Source: Kordia algicida OT-1 (GTDB lineage: Bacteria > Bacteroidota > Bacteroidia > Flavobacteriales > Flavobacteriaceae). Taken from it: 64,000 nucleotides of DNA. How positions within the stretch are numbered: the first letter of the stretch is position 1; every line of letters starts with the position of its first letter. Below the pieces are notes generated by a model that had not been told where the DNA came from, made no database searches, and saw only the letters and a list, made by a program, of their open reading frames with translations. Of this stretch, positions 37,652-40,832 are shown one piece after another. Both the position numbers and the translations under genes were made by a program. The DNA lies in contig NZ_DS544873.1 in assembly GCF_000154725.1 (NCBI RefSeq), positions 2,927,397 to 2,991,396 of the forward strand, given 5' to 3'.

Positions 37652-38368
37652 TTAAGCGGAATACGTATCTAAGTTAATTTCTTCTCCAACTTTTAACTTA
37701 AAGCGTTTTCTGAACACATAAACAATTAGATACAAAAAAGGTGTGTCTAGAAAAGCAACTAAAACTTTAAAGATAAAACCACTAGCGATGAGTCCTAAAT
37801 ACAAATCCCAAGGTAAAATTTCAAATACACATAAAAGCGTGATGACAGAAAATGTGTCTACAAATTGTGAAGCGAACGTAGAAAAGTTATTTCGCAACCA
37901 TAAATGTTTTCCTTTGGTCAGTTTTTTCCAAAAATGATACAGTTGAATGTCAATAAATTGTGCAAATAAATAGGAAAGCATAGAAGCAAAAACTGCTAGA
38001 GATGTATTGCCGAATACTTTTGAAAACGTTTCGTCATTTATGGGTGAATTATCTAAGGCAGGAACACTTTGGGAAACATAAATGATTCCTAAGGAGAAAA
38101 ACGACGCAAAAATACCAGCAATAACTACTTGATTAGCTTTCTTTTTACCATAAATCTCTGAAATGGCATCTGTGATTAAAAATGTTAATGGATATGGTAA
38201 CAAACCAACAGAAAGTTTGAATAAGCGTTCACCAAAAACTTCCATTTCAAATGGATACCAATAGAAAAACTTTTGAAAAATTAAGTTAGAAACTACTAAG
38301 GAAGTTATGAAAAGCGCAGCTAAATATAGGTAGATTTTAGCGGCTAGTTTTTTGTCGGCTACTGTCAT
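37652..38368 (-). CDS. queuosine precursor transporter (YhhQ/VUT family)
   Basis: A 238-residue membrane protein with six helices. The VUT_1/YhhQ signature is seen in LLPYPLTFLITDAISEIYGK (PxTFxxxDxxxExYG) and in LFAQFIDIQLYHFWKKLT and the STFASQFVDTFSVITLL helix. The family imports queuine precursors such as preQ0/preQ1 for tRNA modification. It is a single gene, followed by the AsmA-like gene after ~160 nt. Confidence 0.9.
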   Translation of the reverse strand: MTVADKKLAAKIYLYLAALFITSLVVSNLIFQKFFYWYPFEMEVFGERLFKLSVGLLPYPLTFLITDAISEIYGKKKANQVVIAGIFASFFSLGIIYVSQSVPALDNSPINDETFSKVFGNTSLAVFASMLSYLFAQFIDIQLYHFWKKLTKGKHLWLRNNFSTFASQFVDTFSVITLLCVFEILPWDLYLGLIASGFIFKVLVAFLDTPFLYLIVYVFRKRFKLKVGEEINLDTYSA

Positions 38369-38489
38369 TTGGTAAAGATACTAAACTTTCTTCGATGTCA
38401 TTTGTGGCGATTTTAAAATCAGATCAAAAGTAACAGTCGTAATATATAAATTACGAGTCGTTATTTATAAATGACTGATTATAAGTGTT

Positions 38490-38519
38490 TTGATTTGATT
38501 TTGTGGGAATGTAGATTTG
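38490..38519 (+). promoter_or_regulatory. promoter of the RiPP precursor gene
   Basis: TTG (38490-38492, within TTTTG) and TAGATTTG (38512-38519) are 19 nt apart, a full Bacteroidota consensus, 30 nt before the ATG of the small peptide. Confidence 0.75.
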
Positions 38520-38548
38520 TTTCAATATTAATCACAAACTTTTATATT

Positions 38549-38779
38549 ATGAAGAAAAAAGGATTTAAAAACTTGTCCCTAAACAAAAAATCAGTTTCTA
38601 ATTTATCAAACATGAGTGAGAGATTAAAAGGAGGAACTGGCTCTGTTGAAACGTGTACAGGTTGGGCTAGTTGTGGTAATTGTACAGTTGACTGTGGAAC
38701 CAATCCTTATGAAAGTGTTCAGCTTTGCTGGCATTCGTTAAATATTGGACCACTTCCATGTAACCAAAACAAAAAGTAA
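38549..38779 (+). CDS. class I lanthipeptide-like RiPP precursor peptide
   Basis: A 76-residue peptide. The leader reads MKKKGFKNLSLNKKSVSNLS then NMSERLKGG: the LxLxKxxIxxL-like motif (LSLNKKSVSNL) and the double-glycine end (residues 28-29) are typical of Bacteroidota class I lanthipeptide leaders. The 47-residue core has six Cys (ETC, ASC, GNC, VDC, QLC, LPC) and several Ser/Thr. No LanB, LanC, C39 peptidase or transporter gene is in this window, so the modifying enzymes must act in trans, or the peptide may stay unmodified. A longer in-frame start at 38471 lies before the promoter and is rejected. Confidence 0.82.
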   Translation: MKKKGFKNLSLNKKSVSNLSNMSERLKGGTGSVETCTGWASCGNCTVDCGTNPYESVQLCWHSLNIGPLPCNQNKK

Positions 38780-38795
38780 GCCGCAGTAGAAACAA

Positions 38796-38827
38796 AAAAA
38801 GCCTTTCCAGAAACAGAAAGGCTTTTT
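38796..38827. terminator. bidirectional terminator between RiPP gene and sppA
   Basis: AAAAAGCCTTTC (38796-38807) pairs perfectly with GAAAGGCTTTTT (38816-38827) over an 8-nt loop, flanked by A and T runs. It can serve both the precursor gene and the convergent sppA gene. Confidence 0.88.
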
Positions 38828-38849
38828 CATGTGATTAATAACTAACAAA

Positions 38850-40619
38850 TTATTTAATCTCAATTTCATACGGTAATAACAATTGTGGACCTTCCATCTT
38901 TGTTATTTGCTTCATTTTTTGAAGAATTAAATAGTTTTTATCACCCAATTCTTCTTTCATCATTTCTTCTTTACTTTGGATGAATCCGCCTGTAAATTGA
39001 TTTAAGATGCTTTCTAAATCTTTTTCATATACAGGTAATTCTTCAATTTTATACTCTGTCATGTCAGCAGCATCTGCGGCAGCTTGTAATGCCATATCTA
39101 GTCCGCCAATTTCATCGACCAAACCAATTTTAATAGCGTCGTTTCCTGTCCAAACACGACCTTGACCAATTTCGTCTACCGCTTCTTGCGTCATTCCACG
39201 TCCGTCAGCAACACGTTGTGTAAACAAGTCATAAATATCTTCAATTCCTTCTTTTATCAACGCACGTTGTTCGTCGCTCATTGGTTCAAATATGCTGTAA
39301 TCAACAGCATTTTTATTGGTCCCTACTTGTTCAGCATTGATTCCTAAATCTTCTGCGAGTTTGTGCATATTCGGAATCGTTCCAAAAACGCCAATACTTC
39401 CCGTAATAGTATTTGGTTCGGCATAAATTTTATCTGCGTTACAAGCAATATAATATCCGCCAGAAGCGGCTAAATCTCCCATAGAAACAATGACAGGTTT
39501 TTCCTTTTTAGTCAATTCAATTTCTCTCCAAATTAACTCACTTGCCAGAGCACTTCCACCAGGAGAATTTACACGTAATACAATTGCTTTTACGTTTTCA
39601 TCTTCTCTTGCTTCTTTCAACGCTTTGTTTATCACACCTTGTCCGATAAAATTTTCATTACCTTCGGCATACATAATTTGACCCTGTGCATAAATAACAG
39701 CGATTTTTTCGTCACTTTTCTTTACTGTTGGTTTTTTATCAGCAGTATACTCGGCATAATCATAAATGTTCACTCGGTTGATGTCACTATTTTCGCCCAT
39801 TGCATATTGAATTCCCGCTTCATATTCGTCTTCATAACCAATTTTATCAATTAATTTTACATTCAAAGCTCGTGTTGCGGTTCTTCCTGCGAGTTCGTCT
39901 GCTAAGGTATTTAAGTGATCTGATGAAAGGTTTCTGCTTTCAGCAATTTCAGTACGCATTTCGTCCCAAATTGATTGTAAAAACACAGAAATTTGCTCAC
40001 GATTCGCTTCACTCATTTCCTGATTTAAATATCCTTCAACAGCACTTTTATATTTTCCGTGACGAATCACTTCCATTTTTATACCGTATTTCTCTTGAAA
40101 ATCTTTGTAATACATGCGTTCCATCGATAAACCTTTAAAATCCAATCCGCCAACAGGATTCAGATATACAGTATCTGCTACAGAGTTTAAGTAATAATCT
40201 TTTTGAGAATAATAATCACCATAAGAAACGATGAATTTGCCGGATTCTTTAAATGCTAATAAAGCATCACGCAACGCTTTTGTTTGCGCCATTCCAGCTT
40301 GAAGTGTATTGTTTTTGATAGAAATTCCTTTAATCTTATCGTCATCTTTTGCATAGTGAATTGCGTCAATAATATTGAACAATCCGTCGTGCACTTGATC
40401 TTGAGGATAAAAAGGAACTTTACTAAAATCAAATCTTCCTGCGTAATCGTCAATTGGAGCATCAAGATTCAATTCTATAATGGAATTGCTTTTTACGGAA
40501 ACAATATTTTTATCAGATCCTGCGCTTGCAAAAACGAAAATCAGTAACAATAAAAAACAAAGTCCGAAGAAAACACCAATTCCAACAACTGTTGAAAGTA
40601 CTCGTTTAAAAAAATTCAT
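38850..40619 (-). CDS. sppA: signal peptide peptidase SppA (67K type)
   Basis: A 589-residue membrane-anchored serine peptidase that removes leftover signal peptides. An N-terminal helix (VLSTVVGIGVFFGLCFLLLL) is followed by two tandem S49 domains. The catalytic lysine lies in IRHGKYKSAVEGYLNQ and the catalytic serine in VNSPGGSALASELIW; MGDLAASGGYYIAC and NTITGSIGVFG also match. I use the ATG at 40619 (MNFFKRVLS), since 24 extra upstream residues would place the helix too deep and include the promoter. Confidence 0.93.
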   Translation of the reverse strand: MNFFKRVLSTVVGIGVFFGLCFLLLLIFVFASAGSDKNIVSVKSNSIIELNLDAPIDDYAGRFDFSKVPFYPQDQVHDGLFNIIDAIHYAKDDDKIKGISIKNNTLQAGMAQTKALRDALLAFKESGKFIVSYGDYYSQKDYYLNSVADTVYLNPVGGLDFKGLSMERMYYKDFQEKYGIKMEVIRHGKYKSAVEGYLNQEMSEANREQISVFLQSIWDEMRTEIAESRNLSSDHLNTLADELAGRTATRALNVKLIDKIGYEDEYEAGIQYAMGENSDINRVNIYDYAEYTADKKPTVKKSDEKIAVIYAQGQIMYAEGNENFIGQGVINKALKEAREDENVKAIVLRVNSPGGSALASELIWREIELTKKEKPVIVSMGDLAASGGYYIACNADKIYAEPNTITGSIGVFGTIPNMHKLAEDLGINAEQVGTNKNAVDYSIFEPMSDEQRALIKEGIEDIYDLFTQRVADGRGMTQEAVDEIGQGRVWTGNDAIKIGLVDEIGGLDMALQAAADAADMTEYKIEELPVYEKDLESILNQFTGGFIQSKEEMMKEELGDKNYLILQKMKQITKMEGPQLLLPYEIEIK

Positions 40620-40646
40620 AGCGTATATATTTATGTAAGCCTTTTG

Positions 40647-40655
40647 GCAAAAGTA
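40647..40655 (-). promoter_or_regulatory. -7 element of sppA
   Basis: TACTTTTGC on the minus strand lies ~28 nt before the sppA ATG. The TTG box is not found at the expected distance. Confidence 0.5.
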
Positions 40656-40832
40656 TTTATTAATTGAATAACTAGAAAGTAAGTGTGACAAATTGTTAAA
40701 ATGTTACACTTTTTAAGAAATAAATAACAGAATCTTTTTAAAGTTAGAAATAAAGCGACTTTTCATCAATTGATACATGCTAAAAAAGAACGGCAAATGT
40801 AATTTTTGCAAAAGCGATCCGTATATTTTGAC

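Follow-up and report, generated by a model that had tools for sequence, protein, structure and literature searches.

The small gene at 38549-38779 of the window, which is the whole 64,000-base stretch analysed here (positions 2927397-2991396 of the Kordia algicida OT-1 contig), encodes a 76-aa peptide whose leader is shared by over a hundred precursors scattered in this genome. This is the main point that the earlier note, made from the window only, had missed. The peptide is probably a class I lanthipeptide-type precursor, predicted from its sequence to be modified in trans by the single LanB and a LanC of the genome, cleaved after its GG end and exported.

The precursor gene and its flanks

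The ORF had been correctly placed on the + strand, and its features are listed in Table 1. The earlier description of a Bacteroidota-type leader with a GG end, followed by a 47-residue core with six Cys, was right in both coordinates and counts, and LSLNKKSVSNL (residues 9 to 19) fits the LxLxKx5L motif exactly. The core had also been said to hold relatively few Ser/Thr, which is wrong, as it contains nine Ser/Thr for six Cys. No match was obtained when the Pfam models were searched with the 76-aa peptide, and model NF038153 (lant_leader_L1a) scored it at 15.7 bits, below the curated cut-off of 22. A scan of named genomes, from which close records were possibly excluded, gave only a 13-residue Micromonospora match that was taken as chance.

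Table 1. Features of the precursor gene and its surroundings (positions in the window)
Feature	Position	Strand	Basis or remark
Left neighbour, 238-aa protein	37652-38368	-	Occurs in 11/11 Kordia genomes
Promoter-like string TTG-N19-TAGATTTG	38490-38519	+	Pattern not enriched in the family
Family-conserved start context	38536-38548	+	AAA at -13 to -11, A at -3
Precursor peptide gene, 76 aa	38549-38779	+	ORF list; one of 92 same-leader ORFs
Leader MKKKGFKNLSLNKKSVSNLSNMSERLKGG, 29 aa	38549-38635	+	LxLxKx5L motif, GG end
Core of 47 aa (six Cys, nine Ser/Thr)	38636-38776	+	Ser/Thr at -4 or -5 for 4/6 Cys
Probable terminator, a hairpin flanked by runs of A and T	38795-38828	.	Folding
Right neighbour, SppA-like	38850-40619	-	Start picked by eye within ORF 38850-40691

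Among the 92 family genes described below, the bases preceding the start codon are conserved, with A at -13, -12 and -11 in 82-89% and A at -3 in 87%; the corresponding figures for 175 control ORFs are 50-62% and 41%. In Flavobacterium johnsoniae, A at -3 favours initiation, according to excerpts of a published study (PMC6847099). The family start context is also present before the ATG at 38549, which is therefore favoured over the in-frame upstream ATG at 38471.

A consensus promoter had been proposed for the gene. The string is indeed present, and yet the TTG-N19-type pattern occurs within the 200 bases upstream of only 3/92 family genes, compared to a shuffle mean of 1.7, and before 7/163 control ORFs. 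Since the pattern is not enriched before family genes, the string is no evidence of a promoter, and the promoter was rejected as a feature of the family. The terminator proposed downstream fared better, as a folding energy of -15.6 kcal/mol (z -3.74) was computed for positions 38780-38840, none of 200 shuffles being as good, and the strong hairpin found there is a probable terminator. Because it is placed between convergent genes, this hairpin may serve both of them. The right neighbour is presumably a SppA-like signal peptide peptidase, and we take the left one to be yhhQ. In loci L075, L076, L078, L079 and L082 to L084, the 238-aa neighbour is 80-90% identical to the window copy, and the SppA-like neighbour is about 49-60% identical over the parts compared.

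A dispersed leader family and its candidate enzymes

The own genome consists of one contig of 5,033,129 bases. When it was searched with the 76-aa peptide, 73 matches were obtained at E <= 10 (the peptide itself included), mostly over the leader. A leader profile refined on stretches representing 9% of the genome accepted 92 ORFs in these stretches (worst E 5.6e-5), while 0/4356 reversed and 0/4356 shuffled segments matched at 0.01. The whole genome was then searched with an alignment of 91 of these leaders, one ORF with masked bases being omitted both here and from the core counts. This search, which had been suggested for other LSLNKK leaders, gave at least 128 matches at E <= 0.01, a lower bound because the best 150 of 231 candidates were scored. 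The gene had been called an orphan, which is thus wrong at the scale of the genome.

The 92 leader ORFs are spread from 0.17 to 4.69 Mb over 54 places (3 kb linkage), including 31 singletons, and the largest group contains five. All of them (92/92) carry the leader motif in a relaxed form and 60/92 the strict LxLxKx5L, the 76-aa peptide included. The class I lanthipeptide leader model NF038153 matches 68/91 leaders at E <= 0.05; the other models matching were NF038158 (9 leaders), TIGR04149 of the rSAM family (3) and a darobactin model (1). The mean pairwise identity is 0.51 for the leaders and 0.26 for the cores, compared to 0.25 for shuffled cores (1439 pairs). Despite their common leader, the family cores are therefore as dissimilar as shuffled sequence.

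As had been noticed from the window, no LanB, LanC or C39 match is found in it at E <= 0.001, and all 11 LanB, LanC-like and C39 matches of the genome lie outside positions 2927397-2991396. Searching the rest of the genome, as the earlier note had advised, recovered all three. The single LanB (PF04738 at 3416113-3418083) lies 450 kb from the precursor gene and is split into a 759-aa Lant_dehydr_N protein followed by a 304-aa Lant_dehydr_C protein, at about 3.416-3.419 Mb. It is preceded by a LanC of 405 aa, and beyond it are a TPR protein that carries an AraC-type domain and then, on the opposite strand, HlyD and a C39-ABC transporter. In an alignment of LanB with NisB, R83, R87 and T89 are kept (hand count along the alignment), and these residues presumably have a catalytic role. 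LanC carries H197, C264 and C314-H315, which we take to be the zinc-binding residues. Three precursors with the same leader are located 3.3-5.8 kb from the LanB start and are weaker members of the family (42.8, 21.4 and 28.5 bits), while 89/92 precursors of the examined stretches are more than 20 kb away from LanB.

The own genome also contains six C39 matches, one of them weak, and three further LANC_like proteins besides the LanC adjacent to LanB. In this genome and in that of K. antarctica (G002), the LANC_like frames have 356-426 and 407 aa, respectively, and none is LanM-sized. At L057 (1588398-1592170) and L059 (3477797-3479650), a LanC-like gene is found with a nucleotidyltransferase and same-leader precursors, and without LanB. 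One of these two LanC-like genes has intact zinc residues and the other has none of the motifs sought; the pairs could correspond to an added tailoring step or to a different activation chemistry. Locus L055 (3078926-3085477) encodes, in a row, a Subtilase, a 138-aa ORF, a 329-aa Cys/Thr/Gly-rich ORF, an APH-like kinase, a HopA1-family protein and a LanM-type LanC, an arrangement which we take to be of the class V lanthipeptide type. At L051 (1817763-1818537), a C39 peptidase match adjoins a SPASM match, possibly as a separate radical SAM peptide locus.

In the proposed mechanism, the common leader would be recognised in trans by the only LanB of the genome, its 759-aa protein acting in glutamylation and its 304-aa protein in elimination. 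LanB would dehydrate Ser/Thr residues of the core, and the adjacent LanC would close thioether rings onto Cys that follow at a distance of a few residues. Cleavage after GG and export would then fall to a C39 transporter, either the C39-ABC/HlyD exporter near LanB or a different one. We infer the action of LanB on the 76-aa peptide, its ring pattern, the transporter used and an extracellular action of the product. By analogy, we expect the products to form a diversified set of cyclic peptides, secreted to deal with other organisms.

Leader, LanB and ring spacing in Kordia and its family

All 11 Kordia genomes contain the leader in large numbers, from 113 to at least 150 copies per genome (at least 150 in 4/11), with a sum of at least 1,544 matches, orthologues included. 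Each of the 11 genomes has exactly one LanB match. In K. antarctica, 122 leaders occur with a single LanB and a single LANC_like match, and the other ten genomes have 3-6 LANC_like matches each. Three genomes bear LanM-sized LANC_like frames of 974-982 aa (G001:C34:229372-230421, G004:C2:129796-130845 and G006:C5:128579-129628), so that LanB may not be the sole dehydratase there, and frames of this size make additional class II synthetases possible in G001, G004 and G006. When 1.5-kb flanks of LanB were inspected, 2/10 congener loci showed a leader ORF.

The co-occurrence of leader and LanB was examined in 299 genomes of the host's family, evenly drawn from a larger group, with a leader threshold of E <= 0.001. 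The leader was found in 13/299 genomes and LanB in 25/299, and all 13 are within the 25 (P 2.8e-16). When the own genus was removed, the 11 remaining leader genomes were still all among the 23 LanB genomes of 297 (P 4e-14). In 9/13 genomes (G000, G028, G087, G148, G158, G187, G220, G226 and G306), a leader ORF is at most 4 kb from LanB; the distance is 284 kb in G112 and 70 kb in G297, the two are on separate contigs in G204, and for G004 scoring was limited to the 28 best candidates. The other 12/25 LanB genomes of this survey gave no leader match, and their precursors may carry other leaders. Since the leader was found in these 299 genomes only where LanB is present (13/13), it is tied to LanB and not merely to GG export. 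Together with the exact motif fit and the single split LanB of the genome, with LanC, HlyD and C39-ABC nearby, this gives good support to the earlier proposal of a class I leader and of modification in trans. In another genus of the family, G087 and G297 contain at least 13 and at least 24 leader copies (at most the 28 best candidates being scored per genome) with one LanB each. These genomes represent a second, smaller expansion outside Kordia.

Modification of the precursors by a radical SAM (SPASM) maturase instead of LanB was also considered. SPASM matches are present in all 11 Kordia genomes (1-7 per genome), TIGR04149 matches 3/91 leaders, and a published survey reports, in the sections available, ambiguity between both classes (PMC11118758). 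On the other hand, the class I lanthipeptide model fits 68/91 leaders, leader occurrence follows LanB across the family genomes, and three precursors of the same type lie near LanB. We therefore give very little credence to a SPASM maturase and favour LanB.

The cores themselves were inspected for a ring signature, by keeping the Cys positions fixed and shuffling the remaining core residues. In the 91 own cores, Ser/Thr are enriched at -5 of Cys (125 vs 79 expected, z 6.2) and at -4 (103 vs 79 expected, z 3.2); they are also enriched at +2 (z 5.0) and depleted at -2 and +1, and no enrichment was seen at +4 or +5. When 63 non-redundant own cores were used, the -4/-5 sum was 179 vs 126.3 expected, a value reached in 0/4000 shuffles, and the +4/+5 sum was depleted (76 vs 104.4 expected). 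The -4/-5 positions, picked from the own-genome cores, gave a weak excess (63 vs 51.1; 78/4000 shuffles) in 29 congener cores dissimilar to all own cores, for which the range -3 to -6, picked after seeing the congener result, gave 128 vs 101.5 (2/4000 shuffles). When 104 congener cores were used with their redundancy, the Ser/Thr peak was at -4 and -3, not at -5. Cores shorter than 15 aa were excluded from the non-redundant tests, the sizes of the non-redundant sets (55, 28, 63 and 29) vary with threshold and ordering, and the 106 peptides that supplied the congener cores were taken from the best-scoring leader matches and further loci, which is not a random draw.

These data bear on the alternative offered in the earlier note, in which the peptide is exported without modification. 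In that case the leader would serve only for GG cleavage and C39 export, and the core would be a disulfide-bonded or free Cys peptide. Several features are compatible with this alternative, namely the C39 matches of the genome, the GG end and the Cys-rich core. Moreover, the Ser/Thr spacing of the 76-aa peptide taken alone is not significant: 4/6 of its Cys have Ser/Thr at -4/-5, which 10% of the shuffles match. At the level of the family, however, Ser/Thr lie upstream and not downstream of Cys, and this directional spacing disfavours disulfides because lanthionine rings need a direction whereas disulfides do not. The Cys number is odd in 36/91 cores (54 are even and one has none), which is not decisive alone; Ser/Thr are at least as numerous as Cys in 91/91; and the leader was found only alongside LanB among the 299 family genomes. 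Unmodified export is thus disfavoured for the family as a whole, less clearly so for the 76-aa peptide considered alone, and we regard it as unlikely compared to LanB-dependent ring formation.

Turnover of the slot and comparison with known systems

The slot next to the 238-aa neighbour, where the precursor gene lies in the window, contains same-leader precursors in 10/11 Kordia genomes. There is one in each of G000, G001, G002, G004 and G006, three in G005 and four each in G003 and G009. G007 has two complete precursors and one cut short (L082), and G008 has three complete ones and a fourth truncated where the locus ends. No precursor was found in the slot of G010, the two flanking matches being 173 bases apart. 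The 3.7-kb loci of G003, G008 and G009 end before the SppA-like gene. The occupants have different core types, one being found in G001, G002 and G004, a second in G003, G005, G006, G008 and G009, and a third in the own genome; the own slot core and the second type have the NCTxDC motif in common, by eye. The four-precursor arrays of G003 (L077, 167-1303) and G009 (L080, 189-1307) consist of mostly closely similar members.

The core closest to that of the 76-aa peptide occurs in G003 at a different locus, with 26/35 aligned core residues identical. Between these two genes, dN is 0.27 and dS 1.28 in the leader, and dN is 0.25 with a saturated dS in the core. Low dN and high dS indicate that the encoded protein has been kept. 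Shuffling of leader and core between the two was also considered; the leader score of 79 is close to 78, the 90th percentile among all leaders, and nothing firm could be concluded. For close pairs in general, core dN is below dS in 51/52 measurable cases of 67, the pairs having been chosen by core identity, which biases the result, and the 15/67 without finite distances having been excluded. Positive selection on the cores was thus not seen.

It could be asked whether most dispersed copies, including the 76-aa gene, are decaying and unexpressed duplicates. Some members are short or without Cys (1/91 cores has no Cys), the L082 copy is truncated and one own-genome copy has masked bases. Against such decay stand the dN and dS values of the close pairs, with their biased selection, those obtained against the G003 relative, and the conserved start context. 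We consider it very unlikely and retain the view of precursors modified in trans.

On balance, we favour the interpretation that the genus Kordia as a whole possesses a class I counterpart of the prochlorosins on a larger scale, with one split LanB per cell and more than a hundred hypervariable precursors. These would occupy conserved intergenic slots in which precursors appear, disappear, multiply or give way to others from one species to the next, and a single constant enzyme would thus supply the genome with a rapidly changing repertoire of secreted ring peptides. If this is true, the layout of one enzyme and many substrates is not confined to class II enzymes or to one phylum, having arisen with LanB/LanC chemistry too. 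Kordia would then also provide a class I dehydratase that is promiscuous by nature, and a large set of its own substrates from which the tolerance of LanB could be learned. Mining for gene clusters misses nearly all such precursors, because 89/92 are so distant from LanB.

Kordia was described as RiPP-rich in the TrRiPP survey, with up to 176 precursors in one Bacteroidota genome, and LanC with a nucleotidyltransferase was reported beside Kordia precursors (PMC11118758, in the sections available). These sections describe no leader shared around a single LanB, no ring spacing and no slot turnover (PMC11118758). Likewise, searches of the open-licence literature listed no paper with a title or abstract beginning that gives an account of one shared leader, more than 100 dispersed precursors and one LanB.

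Pinensins are clustered with their own enzymes, unlike the dispersed Kordia precursors. They originate from Chitinophaga and are, like the products proposed for the Kordia precursors, class I lanthipeptides of Bacteroidota (PMC7268733, in part). Class I clusters of Bacteroidetes with LxLxKx5L leaders, GG ends and C39 proteases were described in the available part of Walker et al. (2020, PMC7268733), and the Kordia system has the same leader motif, GG end and C39 protease. That account, in the same part, proceeds per gene cluster and the largest class I example it names has 10 precursors (PMC7268733), whereas 89/92 precursors found in the own genome are remote from LanB.

The closest parallel in layout is offered by the prochlorosins and synechococsins of picocyanobacteria, in which ProcA and SyncA precursors are modified by ProcM and SyncM. 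According to excerpts of one account, ProcM has 29 substrates and SyncM 79 precursors, and one strain has 143 precursors with two ProcM-like enzymes (PMC10783134). As far as these excerpts go, the Kordia system resembles them in the promiscuous single synthetase proposed here, in precursors scattered singly and in tandem, in the GG leader and in the variable Cys core. Membership in the strict prochlorosin family was rejected, the own genome and that of K. antarctica having no LanM-sized LANC_like frame and the peptide having no Pfam match. Prochlorosins are class II products of LanM with a Nif11 leader, whereas Kordia has a split class I LanB with LanC and the LxLxKx5L leader, in Bacteroidota. 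In its layout the system is nevertheless prochlorosin-like throughout the genus, as one LanB faces 113 to at least 150 leaders in 11/11 genomes, with some reservation for the three congeners that have LanM-sized LANC_like frames as well.
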